The notes under the pieces are model-generated. The model was given only the letters and a program-made list of their open reading frames with translations, did no database searches and had not been told where the DNA came from. The position numbers and the translations under genes were made by a program. A stretch of DNA of 64,000 nt. It comes from Rhynchosporium graminicola. Taxonomy: Eukaryota > Ascomycota > Leotiomycetes > Helotiales > Ploettnerulaceae. Below, in pieces: positions 16,261 through 29,303 of the stretch. The stretch is taken from assembly GCA_900074885.1 (NCBI GenBank), contig FJUW01000019.1, forward strand, positions 496,001 to 560,000, read 5' to 3'. Within the stretch, counting starts at the first letter, position 1. Each line of letters begins with the position of its first letter.

Positions 16261-17469
16261 TCAGACACACTGAGAATACCATGTGTTGGTGATTGTGCAT
16301 ATACTCCCTGAAACACAAGCAGTTGGTCCAGTCCACCAAAGCCCGCCACATTGTCCATATTTCACTTGTAAAGTGCTAGTAGGAGATGCCGTAGCAACTG
16401 CAGTCGTCGAGATCAGTGTACTAATAAGACTCTTGCTGGTCGTCACCGTCGTCAATACATTACTGCTACTCCTGCTACTCGTCCTCATCGTCGTTGTTTC
16501 CTGTACCTTCGAAGTCGTTACTCCACCTCCCTCTCTCGGCCTAGAGAAGCATCCTTGTCCTCTGCAAGCTAAATCAAACCACCTCAACACCTCCGTACTA
16601 TTAGTCTGAATATCATGTCCTACCCCCTCCGCACTAGTCGCCTCAAACCCCCCTCCATAGCTATAAGTCGTCCATCCGCTCTTCACATCATTCTTCCTGA
16701 CACTCATCGGCTCGCTCGACAAGCCCAGTACCGCAGTCCACTGCTTGATCTCCTCCTGGAAATTTTGCGGATAGACAACATTATCCACCGTCCCATGAAA
16801 AACCTGCATCTTAGGTCTCCACCCCTCATACCCCGGATACGCAGCTTGCACAATCGCTTTCCACTCCGCACCGGTTTTCACAACCCGTCCTTTCGCACAA
16901 TCATCATTCCAAACCGCTGTTCCCCCTGCTGGATCGGCGTAACAACCGAAAGGCACGCCAGCCCACGCACTCCCAGCAGCGAAAACATCAGGGTATGCAC
17001 CGAGTAACACATTTGTCATCATAGCTCCTGAGCTCGTACCCATAGCGAACACTCTACTTGCATCCGCGCCATATTTCTGAATTGTCCAGCGTACCATGCT
17101 GACTATTCCGAGACTGTCGCCTCCAGCGTCGTGGTGGAGAGTTTCTTTGGAGGACAAGTCCCAACATCCACCGCTATGAGGAGAGGATGGGAAGATCATT
17201 ATGTAGCCATGTGTGTCGGCCAGAGAGGCGAGATTCGTACCGCCGAATGCAGCTGATGCAGTTCCTTGACACCAATGTGGGTTTACGAGGATTGGAGGAG
17301 ATGATTGGAGCGTAGGTGGTAGGTAGATGTAGAAAGATACGTTAGTGGGGTTAGGTCCGAAGGTGTCGGCGATTTGGATGAGGGGGTTGATGGCGCTGGA
17401 GACTTGGTGTGGAAGGAGGAGGGTGAGGAGGATGGAGAGGGAGCCAAAGGTTGGAATAAGGGAGAGCAT
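16261..17469 (-). CDS. Secreted CE1-type esterase (acetylxylan/feruloyl) with CBM1
   Basis: Secreted carbohydrate esterase expected to remove acetyl or feruloyl groups from xylan. Single exon, 402 aa. Signal peptide at residues 1-26 ([17 protein letters not shown]). The alpha/beta hydrolase domain has nucleophile motif G-T-S146-S-G, acid D229 in HGTVDN and H285 in EGVGHD; it is the poly(3-hydroxybutyrate)-depolymerase-like fold used by fungal CE1 esterases. A Ser/Thr linker (about 318-366) leads to a C-terminal fungal cellulose-binding module, CBM1 (about 369-402), with YGQCGG, WTGPTAC and WYSQC. The module anchors the enzyme to plant cell wall. Exact substrate (acetyl versus feruloyl) cannot be decided from sequence. 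Confidence 0.93.
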
Positions 17470-18315
17470 TGTGATGGGGTTGGAGTTAGAAACCGAGAGA
17501 ATGAGATGACTCGAAGTGAAGATACAGAATTAGATGTTCAAGATTGACAAAGAGAGCCCAAAATCAAAGAGAACCCAGGGCGAGAATGATATAGATCTCC
17601 AGTCATGGAACTACCACTATTGGGACCTCGGAGAAAAGATACCGCACCAGCGTTAAACCCCCCTTTCCGAACATTCGAAATTTCGGCATGAAGAATCGAA
17701 GTCTGGGCTAAATCTGATGGAATATTTTCTGAAATTTCTCCGTCCACTTACTGCAACCCCTCGACATTCTGCCAATGGTCTTGGCGACGTGTTTACGGCC
17801 CGGTGCCCGCTAAATGTTAAGCGAAGAGATCTGGCATATCTAGAAAGCAAATTTCGACGTTGTTCGGAGTTCTTGAATACGGCATCGAGTATTCGCTCTT
17901 TGCTCCAAGTGAAATGTCTCTCACAGGTTGAGAGCTGGTGTTGTTGTTGTCGTTGGACTGGAGAGCACGAGTTACACGGAGTTGTGTCTCCAATCAGCCC
18001 CTGCTTCCGTCTCACCTGCACCCTTTCCCGTCTTTCCTCCCCTGCTCAACAACGTCATCGACAACACAACCATCTCACCATCCCATCCTCATTTCCCAGA
18101 AACCTGGCTACCATCGCGACACCAAGCGCAGCGCAGCAGCGCAGCAACACTTCAAAAACCCATCTTCCTCCCCTCCATCTGCAATTTAAACTTCCGCAAA
18201 ATTCCCACTTTCCTCACACTACGCTACGCTTCGCTTACTTCGAAAGTCAACATCGCGACCTTAAACGTCAGAAGATACGCTATATCTGCAGAACGTGAAA
18301 TAGTAAATCGCAACC
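17470..18315. other. Shared upstream region of two divergent genes
   Basis: Promoter of the CE1 esterase (-) and long leader of the 18316 gene (+). Forward frames of about 190 codons (17717-18298, 17928-18527) are pyrimidine-rich with no domain, and one overlaps the real gene in another frame. I treat this as untranslated leader. Confidence 0.5.
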
Positions 18316-21469: not shown

Positions 21470-23692
21470 CTAATAGGCAGCCGACACCTGCTTCGCATCC
21501 TCGGCCGTAGCAACAGCCACTAACGCCTCCAATCTTCCCATATCCCCACTCTTCGGCGTCTGTTCATGCTGCTGTGTCGGATTCTGTTGTACGCTTCTAG
21601 GTCCGTATGTATACGCACCTTCCATACCATGTTGCGGAGGTCCATAAGTTGAAACGTAGCCATTTGGTGGTCCATATCTCTGGTCATGTTGTTGATGCTG
21701 GACAACATTACCATTTCGACTCTCAACCCAACCATTCGAGTGGACTATCCCAGGGTTGTATTCGCCCATGGAAGAACTAATGGGTGTTACCGGGATCCCT
21801 CCTTCGGATCCGCTAGATTCTGCTGGAGAAGTTCTTTGCGCTTTATCTGGATGAGAGATGGGACCGTGGTACCATGCTTGTCGCTTATTTTCCCTTGGGG
21901 TGATCGGCGCGGCAGGAGCACTGACATGCTGGGGATAGTGAGCATATCCGGCGCTGGTTTGAGGTCTGACCGAGTAAGATGACTCTTCAAAGCGAACTGC
22001 TGGTTGTTGTCGGACTTGTTCACGAGCTGTTAGAACGGCTCTATTGGCTTCGTTTGCCCATTGACTGGCTGTGTCCGCTGGCGGGGTACCTTGTGTTATG
22101 TTCAATCCGTTCATTCCATTGATGCTTTGCTCCCAGTGTTGACTGACTGGTCTTTCACGATCGTATCCCATGGGAGGACGAGTAGGCGTGTCGATCATCA
22201 TCGGGCTAGGCTGTCGGTAGACGGGAGTCGTAGGTCTTGGAAGTGGATCGAAACTCTCGATGCCTGGAAGACGCAGAGGCTGGCTAGGAACGATCGGAGG
22301 TTGAGGTAGTGGGCCTGTAGCATAGTGAGTTGGTGTCATGACATTCTGTAGACGGCTTGTGTATTGCTCCATGGCGGGCGGTGGTCGAGAATCGTAGTGC
22401 CACGTTCGACGCCTGGCTTCATGTTCTACGGCACTGATAGAATCACGTCGAGACCACCCGCTGGTTGACGTTGTAGGACTGGATATCATGCTTCCTGAAG
22501 GCGAGAAGGGTGCCATATTGGACGTGTTCATCGGAAGAGCGGGTGGACCGAAAGTACCTCCAAGTGGTGATTGGAAAGGGTTTCCATTTCCTGCAGAAGG
22601 AACGGAAAGTCTCCTTCCAGGAGTTCGATGCCCTCCATATATGCTAGTCGGGCGAGAATGAGTAGATCCTGGGGATTGCATCCCTGACCAATGAGGACTA
22701 TTCGGACCAGTCGAAAAAGTGGCAGAAGTCGGAGTGCCGAAGCCTGGAGACTGCGTGCGGTAGGAATCTTGACGATAATAACCACTCGACGGGCTGTCTG
22801 CGCGGTACATCTCTTGCGAAAATCTGTGACCACTATCTGCAATATTCAAGGTAGGTGGGCGTCTTCTCTCATTTCGATTGGCAAAGATCGAGCCGACTGA
22901 ACCATTACTGGTCATGCTAGACATAGAGAGCGAGTTCCGCTGATGTCCGCGGCCATGGGCAGCCTGGCCACCTGCTGTTGATGGTCTTGACCTTCCACCC
23001 GCTGGTCTGACCCTATCCGTACGAACTTGTCTTTGGAATCTAGTTCCGGTCGCCGCTAGTGAATCGGGAGGGATCTCTTCGTTACAGTGAACGGTGGTGG
23101 CATGTTGTCGGAGATTATCAAGTCGAGAAAATCGGCGGTTGCAATGGCAGACGAATGGTCGTTCTCCGGTATGTTTTCTAGACGAGTCAGCGAATGAAGT
23201 CGTACGGAAGCAGAGCGTTGCTTACCTGACATGCCGAGCAAGATGTTCACTTCGAGTGAAGGCGAGTTTGCAGGGTGGGTATTTGTAACATACGAATCCG
23301 CCATCCTTCTTCTTTTTCATCTTTCCGCCCGAAGTTCCACTTGCTTCATCCTCAGACTTGTCGTCACCGCTGTCATCCGAATCCCCATCTCCACCTTTGG
23401 AATCTTTAGACTTGGTAGAGTGCTGCGAGTCGCCACGGGACAAGCTTGTTGCTCCTTCATTTGGGTTTGATGGTAAAGGAGGCGCGAAAGCCGAAGAAGG
23501 TGCTCCATGGTTATCTACACCAAAGGTGACCCTTGTTGGGGTTTTTGCGTCGTCTCGAACCATTATGGGTTGGAACTGTTGCGAACTGGGGGCAGTGCTT
23601 GGACGTGGTGTTAGAGAACTTTCTTCTCCATTGCGACCATGATTATCGGACATGAAGGTTGTAGTTGTTGGGGAAAAGGCAGTTGAAGCCAT
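21470..23692 (-). CDS. C2H2 zinc finger transcription factor (Usv1/Rgm1-like finger pair)
   Basis: Probable nuclear DNA-binding regulator, 724 aa. Model: exon 1 23692-23226, intron 23225-23178 (GTAAGC...TCTAG, 48 nt), exon 2 23177-21470. The intron interrupts the finger region; splicing yields [18 protein letters not shown]. Finger 1 has C135, C141, H150, H154. Finger 2 has an unusual C-H-C spacing (C166-x-C168) followed by [17 protein letters not shown]. The RSEHLARH and SRLDNLRQH helices are those of yeast Usv1/Rgm1/Nrg-type repressors that read GGGG-rich sites. A short conserved block follows ([20 protein letters not shown]), then about 500 disordered residues rich in Pro, Ser, Gln and His. 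An acidic and then Lys-rich segment ([18 protein letters not shown]) precedes finger 1. Target genes unknown. The long upstream region suggests complex regulation. Confidence 0.88.
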
Positions 23693-25972
23693 AGTGGTGG
23701 TGTTTGGATTGAGTATATATGACGGAAGAGGCTGGGAATCGATCGCGGGATGGCGGGGGCGGAACTATTCCCAAGAGGTCGAACGGCAGAAAGTGAAAGA
23801 GGTGGGAGATCGGGGTAATGAACTATCGAAATGTCGAAGACCATACAATATACTGTCTCCTGTTCTCGTCGTGGCCGTGATCAGGTACGGTGTGCTCCGA
23901 TGCAGTGTGGAGGCTGGCAGGCTGAGCCGCAATCCCACGAAATGGTGTTCTGCAGGCGTAGGTATGTTTCCAAGTCCCAGCTTGACCAGCAGCTGCTCTC
24001 TCTGCCGGCGAATATGAACGGACCAGAAGGTGATCCTCGTAATGTGATGCTTGAGCTTAAGATGTGTGTTAACTCTGGATAGATGCGATCTGGATCGATA
24101 GGATGAAGGCGGGGAGGAGACGATACCAGACGATATGCGACCGGGAGAATTCGCTGCGAGAGGGGAAGGAAGACCAGGCTGATGGTAATCAAAGGCAAGG
24201 GTTAGTCTCCAGTGCCAGGCACACAGTGGTGGTCGGGCGAACGAGGAACGGTAGAGGTAGAGATGAGGCTATTGATGTTGATGCATGGAGGTCGTGAGAG
24301 TAGTAGTAGTAACGGTAGCTGGACGAGATGATGCGACCAAGGAAAGAAGTTGCTCGGGTCGAGGTCGTAACGAGGTTAGATGTCGGATAAAGATGGATGA
24401 GATTGACAGGCGCAGATAGTGGTGGATTCGGGTTGCAGATTAAGAAGTCCCGAGGAGAGATGCAAGGAGATGGGATATATGCACCTGCAGTGATGTAGAG
24501 GTAGAGGTAGAGGGGAGGAGGAAGAGGAGGTGATGGTGGTGGTGGAGGAAGGCTGAGTTGGAGCTGACAGCCACCTCGAATTCAGGGCGGGGCGGGGCGG
24601 GATCAGTGAAGTTTGGTCAGTGGTGCCCTGTGTGATGGCTGAATTTAGTGGAGGGGACTTGAGACCTGCCCTGATCCTGATCCTGATGTAGGAAGCCTAT
24701 AGGTTTGTAGTCAGTCTCCTTCTAGTGTGGCAATAAGCGACTGACTAAGCGAGTAAGGGAAGGGAAGGGCTTACGAATTGCACCTGCAGCTATCGTTGCA
24801 GGTGCAGGTGTAGCAGCACGGAAGCTTTTCAGACTTTCTTTCCAGTGGAGTCAAAAGTGTGGGTTTGGTGCCTAAATCAAGGTACGAGTGGATGGATTCG
24901 AGATGCACGACAAAGGAGTTGAGAGGAGGAAGGGAGGAGTCGACTTTTGCTTGCTTGGAGGCTTCGAGTTTTGTTTATTGGAAAAGAGGCTGGAAAGAAA
25001 GAAGTCCCCCAAAGGAAAAGTTGCAGGGAAGAACTTAAGTACTCCAAAGGACGATGATTTCGTGCGAAAGATAGATAGATGGTGAGGTCGTCTAGTCACG
25101 GCATGCTTCTCAACTTCATTTTTTCTTTCCACCATAGTACCATCATCAAGACGTTATTAGAAGACCATCTGACAGTCTGGTGAGATTGTAGCAGGTAGGA
25201 GAACAGGAACAGGAGATCTACCCGAGCAACGACTCGACTGGGAGCACCTACAATATGTAGGTACCGGTACCTGTGTCTGGCCAGACCATCGAATACCTGA
25301 GGACTGGACGGCTATACAAGTCAGATTACTTTTGGTCTCTAGAGTAAAAAGATGCAAGAGACCCTAGAATTAACACAATGACTTTGTTCGAATAGAATAA
25401 GCCTAAATAGTTGTGACTTGATACCATATAGTGATGCTCCGCTGGCCCTCCGGGGGCCACTGCCGTGGAGGCCGTCCCATGAAGAACATGATTCGGGAAT
25501 TCTTTACAACTCTTTGCTGTCCCACCCCACATTTACGGTAACTTCATTCTGTTGTATAAATCTATAACGCTTTCTCCTAATGCTCCTCTCGTAGTGCACC
25601 TTCCTCTCCAGCTTCTCTGTTTCCAAGAGGCTGGAGGCTGGAGGCTGGGTTGGCTTGCTCTTAGTCAAAACGCCCAAAGTATATAGCGCCTCAGGCGGGT
25701 CTTCCGCCAATACACAGCTGCATCGGTTCTACTTACTGCTAGCGGTACCTATGACCTGCAGAGAGTGTGTCTCGGTTTCAAGATTCTGCGGTTCCTGGAC
25801 TGCGCTGCGCTGTGCCTTGCCTTGCCTACCTACTTGGCCGCATGAGGCCAATTCTGCAGTAGAGTTGCAGTAGACTGACTGCCTGCAGCACAGCAACCTA
25901 AGCTACAATATAATAACCTAACCGATGCCGAAGGACGCCTATTCGTCCAACCTCTCAGCCATACGAGCTGGA

Positions 25973-28945: not shown

Positions 28946-29303
28946 TCACGGACACGTCGACCCCCCACATACATACTCGCTACCCACTCTATGGCACGAG
29001 CAGCCCCTCTTCATCAGCTCGTCCATAGCGTTGAGCGCTAAATCGCGAGGACAGGTTGAGCCGCCGCAGACACTGCGTTTGAGGTTCTTGTCAGCTGATG
29101 TTTTTATTTTCTTTGCGGTGCGGGGGAGGGTGAGCGGAAGGATGGAAGGGGAGAGGGAAGGAAGGGGAGGAGAGGAAGAGGGGATCGTACTATTCATCCC
29201 CGACTTTGTGGCATGAACACCCTCTTGCTTCGATGGAGGGCGATGGTGCTGTAAGCGCGAGGGCGGAGAAGAGGGTGAGTAAGAGGGTGAGTGAGAGTTT
29301 CAT
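28946..29303 (-). CDS. Secreted kexin-processed precursor of two Cys-rich peptides
   Basis: 79-aa precursor, two exons: 29303-29191 and 29072-28946. The 118-nt intron has donor GTACGA, branch CTGAC and acceptor CGCAG. Residues 1-19 are a signal peptide (MKLSLTLLLTLFSALALTA), followed by a short pro-region ending in Arg27. Peptide copy 1 (28-46) is GCSCHKVGDEYVCGGSTCP, then a 14-residue spacer ending in the dibasic Lys59-Arg60, then copy 2 (61-79) GCSCHRVGSEYVCGGSTCP and the stop. Lys-Arg is a Kex2 site, so the architecture is that of fungal kexin-processed repeat precursors such as alpha-pheromone. Each copy has four cysteines, suggesting two disulfides. The intron interrupts copy 1 at its Tyr codon; copy 2 is uninterrupted, so the duplicate itself validates the splice. 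No modifying enzyme is adjacent. A GTGAGT right after the last Cys-Pro codon start could be a donor to more sequence, but no third copy was found. Function unknown: signalling, antimicrobial and host-interaction roles are all open. Confidence 0.8.

Follow-up and report, generated by a model that had tools for sequence, protein, structure and literature searches.

A gene on the minus strand of the window, by which we mean the whole 64,000-nucleotide stretch of Rhynchosporium graminicola DNA that was analyzed, encodes a small precursor in which a putative signal peptide is followed by two closely similar four-cysteine units. At the sequence level the gene can be regarded as confirmed, as the identity of its splice product to a deposited protein, the constraint between the two units, and the existence of relatives with a like leader, flank and unit all agree. 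The precursor appears to be a member of a conserved and apparently undescribed fungal family, which is found in plant pathogens and in mushrooms. We propose that it would be secreted and cut by a Kex2-like protease to yield a two-disulfide hairpin peptide with an interaction or signaling role in general fungal life, a reading to which we give an even chance.

The precursor gene and its splicing

The gene consists of two exons between positions 29303 and 28946 of the window (Table 1), and its spliced translation is a 79-residue protein, MKLSLTLLLTLFSALALTAPSPSIEAR-GCSCHKVGDEYVCGGSTCP-RDLALNAMDELMKR-GCSCHRVGSEYVCGGSTCP. The coordinates, the strand, the splice sites and both units had been proposed in a first-pass annotation made from the sequence of the window, and each of them was confirmed in the window DNA. 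The ATG at 29303 is the first in-frame ATG downstream of the last upstream stop codon. The intron ends in GT/AG, with a CTGAC branch-like site about 20 bases upstream of the acceptor, and its retention leads to an immediate stop codon in the reading of the window DNA. A protein search showed that the splice product is letter-for-letter identical to the deposited R. graminicola protein P0001 (WAI453_012617), which bears out the intron claimed by the first-pass annotation. On the other hand, the expectation that automated annotation had probably missed the gene fails for the R. graminicola record, because the identical protein is deposited there, and a variant model is deposited for R. secalis. 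In the models from Cadophora and Oculimacula, the protein runs through unit 1 without a break, as predicted by the splice proposed here. Searches of the genome (55.3 Mb, 121 contigs) found a single locus; a match elsewhere in the genome (C113, E 0.59) was at chance level. The names R. commune and R. graminicola refer to one barley-scald fungus.

Table 1. Positions of the exons, the intron and the encoded parts of the precursor in the window
Feature	Position	Strand	Description
Exon 1	29191..29303	(-)	Start codon, signal peptide, short pro-segment ending in IEAR, first 10 residues of unit 1
Exon 1, 3' end		(-)	Two bases of the next (Tyr) codon of unit 1
Intron	29073..29190	(-)	118 bases, inside unit 1; GTACGA...CTGAC...GCAG
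Exon 2	28946..29072	(-)	Remainder of unit 1, spacer, unit 2, stop codon included
Putative signal peptide MKLSLTLLLTLFSALALTA	29247..29303	(-)	About residues 1-19; hydropathy up to 2.52 (Kyte-Doolittle, 11 residues)
IEAR	29223..29234	(-)	Extended Kex2-type motif (aliphatic-x-x-Arg), adjacent to the start of unit 1
Unit 1 GCSCHKVGDEYVCGGSTCP	29048..29222	(-)	Residues 28-46, split by the intron
Spacer RDLALNAMDELMKR	29006..29047	(-)	Residues 47-60, dibasic Kex2 site at its end; helix in the model
Unit 2 GCSCHRVGSEYVCGGSTCP	28949..29005	(-)	Residues 61-79, ends at the stop codon

The R. secalis model (P0002, RSE6_10894) is 39 residues longer than the product of the window gene and apparently reads in frame through the counterpart of the intron, which disrupts unit 1. 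Either the splice site has been lost in R. secalis or the model is wrong; in R. graminicola the gene has intact copies. In yeast, KEX1 is the carboxypeptidase that trims the products of Kex2. A passage in PMC5118889 reports that KEX1 is absent only from the R. secalis genome, and the co-occurrence of this absence with the odd precursor model is possibly a coincidence or a result of assembly gaps.

Two constrained four-cysteine units

The description of the product as a secreted precursor with twin four-cysteine units also holds, with the units read in the sequence and the putative signal peptide called from the hydropathy of the N-terminus only. A six-frame search of the window for the general pattern CxC-x(5-12)-C-x4-C gave three matches; unit 2 was one of them, and unit 1 was missing because it is split by the intron. 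The two other matches, at 408 (+) and 12416 (-), have neither the Gly of the last loop nor a Trp or Tyr before the third cysteine, and look like chance. Both units of the precursor fit the narrower pattern CxC-x(8-10)-C-x-G-x-x-C, with Trp or Tyr two residues before the third cysteine and an Arg preceding the unit.

The comparison of unit 1 with unit 2 showed that 17 of 19 residues are kept while 18 of 57 bases differ, with 15 of the 18 differences at third codon positions. The Nei-Gojobori method counted 15 synonymous differences (13.2 sites) and 3 non-synonymous ones (43.8 sites), so that dS was saturated and dN was 0.07. When 18 changes were placed at random, a mean of 7.9 and a maximum of 14 residues were kept, and none of 100000 trials kept 17. 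The predominance of third-position differences and this control suggest that the repeat is old and that both copies have been constrained to one sequence, which points to purifying selection on the unit.

Relatives in ascomycetes and mushrooms

Protein searches returned 9 proteins with the single sequence, and 18 and 34 with profiles; their union was 35 different proteins. At least one complete unit was present in 31 of them, in total 47 units, with one unit in 17 proteins, two in 12 and three in two. The count requires four residues ahead of a unit, and for this reason P0005 was scored as having one unit although it holds two. The sources include the Leotiomycetes R. graminicola, R. secalis, Cadophora and Oculimacula, the further ascomycetes Colletotrichum (six names), Thelonectria, Ilyonectria and Fusarium, and the Basidiomycota Agrocybe, Cyathus, Crassisporium, Pleurotus eryngii and Ceratobasidium. 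Among the named Basidiomycota proteins a single unit is the rule, and the only exception is the Pleurotus protein P0027, with two units, the first of which lacks a preceding Arg. A scan of viral contigs for relatives gave two pattern matches, neither of which was confirmed.

The family unit has 18-20 residues counted to the last cysteine, occurs in one to three copies, and follows the pattern [GQ]-C-S-C-x-K-...-[WY]-x-C-x-G-x-x-C. All 47 units have Gly at the second place of the last loop, and two residues before the third cysteine they have Trp (36 units) or Tyr (11); neither was demanded by the counting pattern, but the proteins were found by similarity and the sample is therefore not independent. 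Two residues after the second cysteine stands Lys (41/47), and the residue ahead of the first cysteine is Gln in 24 units, Gly in 21 and another residue in two. P0008, P0009 and P0028 have one unit each, with a leader and flank of the same kind, which points to the unit as the functional module. The spacer is about as conserved as the units in Rhynchosporium, Cadophora and Oculimacula, which suggests that it may not be mere waste, while the Leotiomycete spacer differs from that of Colletotrichum.

Four relatives, P0006, P0007, P0017 and P0035, are truncated or broken inside a unit, which would fit retained introns. The models of P0017, P0019, P0024, P0033 and P0035 have interruptions elsewhere in the unit or flank, for example after CSCHK in P0017 and near the last cysteine in P0024 and P0035, which suggests that intron positions vary within the family.

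Processing signals ahead of the units

The first-pass annotation had proposed Kex2-type processing signals, and these are indeed present, with LMKR ahead of unit 2 and IEAR ahead of unit 1; it had overlooked the latter cleavage-like motif, as well as the relatives in two phyla. The Kex2 motif given in a passage of PMC8528282 has an Arg at P1 and an aliphatic residue at P4, with a preference at P2 that allows variation, and in these terms IEAR and LMKR can be read as one kind of signal. Across the family, P1 is Arg in 45 of 47 units and P4 is Leu, Ile, Val or Met in 44, which together with the extended motif suggests that both units of the precursor carry a cleavage signal. One match to the proprotein-convertase P-domain in the genome suggests that Kex2 itself is present.

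The C-terminus of unit 1 is less simple, since the unit is followed by R-DLALNAMDELMKR, and a C-terminal cut would fall at a single Arg before Asp (CPR-D). For unit 1 to end identically to unit 2, a single-Arg cut followed by trimming would be needed; otherwise the first product would have about 31 residues, with 12 more kept. Apparent cuts after single Arg residues in KEX2-processed repeat proteins (KEPs), as well as pyroglutamate on N-terminal Gln, are described in a part of PMC9769878. Pyroglutamate is a likely N-terminal fate of the Gln-type units, while both window units start with Gly. The computed masses of the two-disulfide forms are 1896.69 Da for unit 1 and 1896.70 Da for unit 2, and that of unit 1 with the trimmed spacer is 3269.34 Da. 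Such precise masses, together with the single locus, make the proposal easy to test.

Predicted shape of the units

The AlphaFold models with P0001 and P0011 as first rows had mean pLDDT values of 62.3 and 56.3, and in both of these weak models each unit forms a two-stranded hairpin. The P0001 model consists of a hairpin (strands 30-34 and 37-41), a helix (47-59) and a second hairpin. In this model the second and third cysteines, at residues 31 and 40, stand opposite each other given a two-residue turn, which would favor I-IV and II-III bonds. The disulfide bonds are themselves proposed from the four conserved cysteines alone. A fold search with the weak P0001 model returned 450 matches at E up to 10, but even the best did not reach 0.001, and we attach no meaning to them.

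This arrangement could also be taken to mean that the protein is not cut and works as a two-domain secreted small protein of hairpin-helix-hairpin shape, possibly an apoplastic effector. The conservation of the spacer across three genera agrees with this explanation, and so does the fact that this leaf pathogen has, according to a passage in PMC5118889, hundreds of small proteins that are predicted to be secreted. The existence of single-unit members, the Arg directly before 45 of the 47 units, the relatives in mushrooms and the difference between the Leotiomycete and Colletotrichum spacers argue against it, and we consider an uncut protein quite improbable.

Proposed mode of action

In the preferred explanation, that of a released interaction or signaling peptide, the precursor would enter the secretory pathway by its signal peptide, which is seen in the sequence. 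A Kex2-like protease would cut after (L/I)xAR and LxKR ahead of each unit, as the conservation of these motifs suggests, and Kex1 or another carboxypeptidase would trim the basic residues. The four cysteines would then form two disulfides on a short β-hairpin, in keeping with the low-confidence model, and the near-neutral peptide, once released, would act outside the cell on a conserved partner. The copies of the unit may raise the output per transcript, as in pheromone precursors.

We prefer such a peptide over a host-specific effector, a sexual pheromone or a modified RiPP toxin, with the suggestion of a signaling role coming solely from conservation and spread. The occurrence of the family in crop pathogens and in mushrooms disfavors a host-specific role, and the spread, the strongly constrained sequence of the unit, the single locus and a charge close to neutral would favor an extracellular ligand with a conserved partner. 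The similarity of the units of leaf pathogens and mushrooms likewise points to a conserved target. The model of a single ligand is strained by the considerable differences between units within several precursors, and the conservation of the spacer in the three Leotiomycete genera also counts against a simple ligand. The identity between such units is 11 to 14 of 18 residues in Fusarium where lengths are comparable, with up to 7 of 18 residues differing in P0023, and it is 10 of 19 in Colletotrichum musicola and 11 of 18 in Pleurotus.

More broadly, the family may represent a Dikarya-wide set of non-sexual ligands, in which a 19-residue disulfide hairpin is cut by Kex2 from one- to three-copy precursors and has a shared extracellular signaling or interaction role. 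This wider reading is tentative and rather doubtful; if true, it would mean that the one- and two-copy members have escaped repeat-based surveys through the demand for three copies.

Disulfide-stabilized secreted mini-peptides often have roles in defense, and the strongest rival to the signaling peptide is one with the same processing whose targets are bacteria, other fungi or small animals. While the presence of the family in pathogens and mushrooms alike would suit such a role, and 9 of the 47 units have a net charge of +2 or +3, the mean charge (K+R-D-E) is +0.43, with 26 units at 0 or below and none above +3. The single locus in this genome also argues against it, as does the search of the PDB, in which no solved structure matched the unit or the profile by sequence at E up to 10. 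An antimicrobial role thus seems unlikely.

The neighborhood of the gene was considered with regard to a modified cyclic RiPP core of the dikaritin type, made by UstYa, which would agree with Kex2-processed repeats and with the UstYa genes of this genome. There are at least 31 UstYa matches in the genome, but none of the 31 listed is on the contig of the window (C74). Of the 31 reading frames of at least 150 residues that were listed for the window, 20 were scanned with Pfam, and among these 20 there was neither a UstYa domain nor a peptide-modification cluster. Four cysteines also suggest plain disulfides, and this candidate, which has next to no probability in our estimate, was dropped. The scanned neighbors encode a CBM1 esterase, a kinase, a prenyl synthase, a PhzF-like protein, a GDSL lipase, a dehydrogenase, a Sec23/24 protein and an ESCO-like acetyltransferase. 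The esterase, at 16261-17529 (-), is a PHB-depolymerase-type enzyme that carries CBM1, a cellulose-binding domain of fungi, and long frames of 583, 180 and 167 residues at 21470-24268 (-) had no Pfam match.

Comparison with known families and precursor classes

The peptide had not been recognized in the first-pass annotation, and no match in the families, structures or literature searched gave a name to this protein. The protein of the window had no match in Pfam, the Pfam matches of its relatives were below the cut-offs, and in NCBIfam only the sub-threshold TIGR04076 was found (17.2 bits for P0001 and 18.3 for P0011, cut-off 33). Searches by peptide strings found no relevant paper in the literature covered.

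One resemblance was to the pacifastin protease inhibitors (PF05375), with which the unit has in common the CxC...G..W-x-C-x4-C spacing. On this reading it could be a truncated inhibitor that retains the final four cysteines of the pacifastin domain. The Fusarium protein P0023 has a precomputed PF05375 assignment and matches the model at E 1.1e-5, but its 25.5 bits are below the curated cut-off of 27.9, and the weaker matches of P0024 and P0029 bring the Fusarium members to E values of 1.1e-5 to 5.1e-3, all below the cut-off; these near-matches are a likely source of wrong database labels. The comparison of a unit profile (41 distinct units supplied, 39 used by the program) with pacifastin gave a score of 10.35, a probability of 1.9% and an E of 0.026, whereas 57 of 200 column-permuted profiles that kept the cysteines scored at least as high, the best of them 23.02. 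After this control the homology was dropped. The inhibitors have six cysteines where the unit has four, the position which we take to be that of their reactive P1 residue is the invariant Gly of the unit, and P0023 matched no pacifastin chain in the PDB, where its one match (E 0.094) was due to chance. A pacifastin-type inhibitor is therefore very unlikely.

The ascomycete alpha-factor precursors resemble the window precursor in layout and Kex2 logic, with a signal peptide, repeats and a KR site, and a passage in PMC6339444 mentions a two-repeat precursor in yeast. In that paper, however, the Leotiomycete type is described with two conserved cysteines, in contrast to four per unit here, and the peptide is a different one. 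The units begin directly with Gly-Cys, without an STE13-type dipeptide after the cut sites of this gene. Scanning the window for the alpha-pheromone core, with letters partly presumed, gave no match, and the family has relatives in Basidiomycota. A precursor of an alpha pheromone or other mating factor is thus highly improbable and was dropped.

The Kex2 pro-domain effectors (K2PP), as described in a part of PMC8528282, likewise have an aliphatic-x-x-Arg motif after a short pro-segment behind the signal peptide. The window precursor differs from them in having more than one mature unit and relatives in mushrooms.

Also close to the window precursor are the KEPs (Le Marquer 2019, PMC6339444; Umemura 2020, PMC7329392), which, in the parts of these surveys that define them, share the signal peptide, the repeated short units, the basic cleavage sites between units and secreted products, mostly of undetermined function. 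Both surveys, in the same parts, require three or more repeats, and in a passage of PMC9769878 the Coprinopsis screen likewise required a part to resemble two or more others. The window precursor has a signal peptide, as judged by hydropathy, and Kex2 sites between its repeats, but with two units, in a family with one to three, it is below the KEP threshold. It also differs in its monobasic first site, IEAR, and in its four conserved cysteines per unit, and the unit is unlike any conserved motif written out in section 10 of PMC6339444. The three-copy Fusarium members are within reach of the KEP surveys and could be listed there. The family is new, while the kind of precursor to which it belongs is known, and its layout falls short of the published KEP definition; it illustrates how precursors with one or two copies are hidden by a rule of three repeats.
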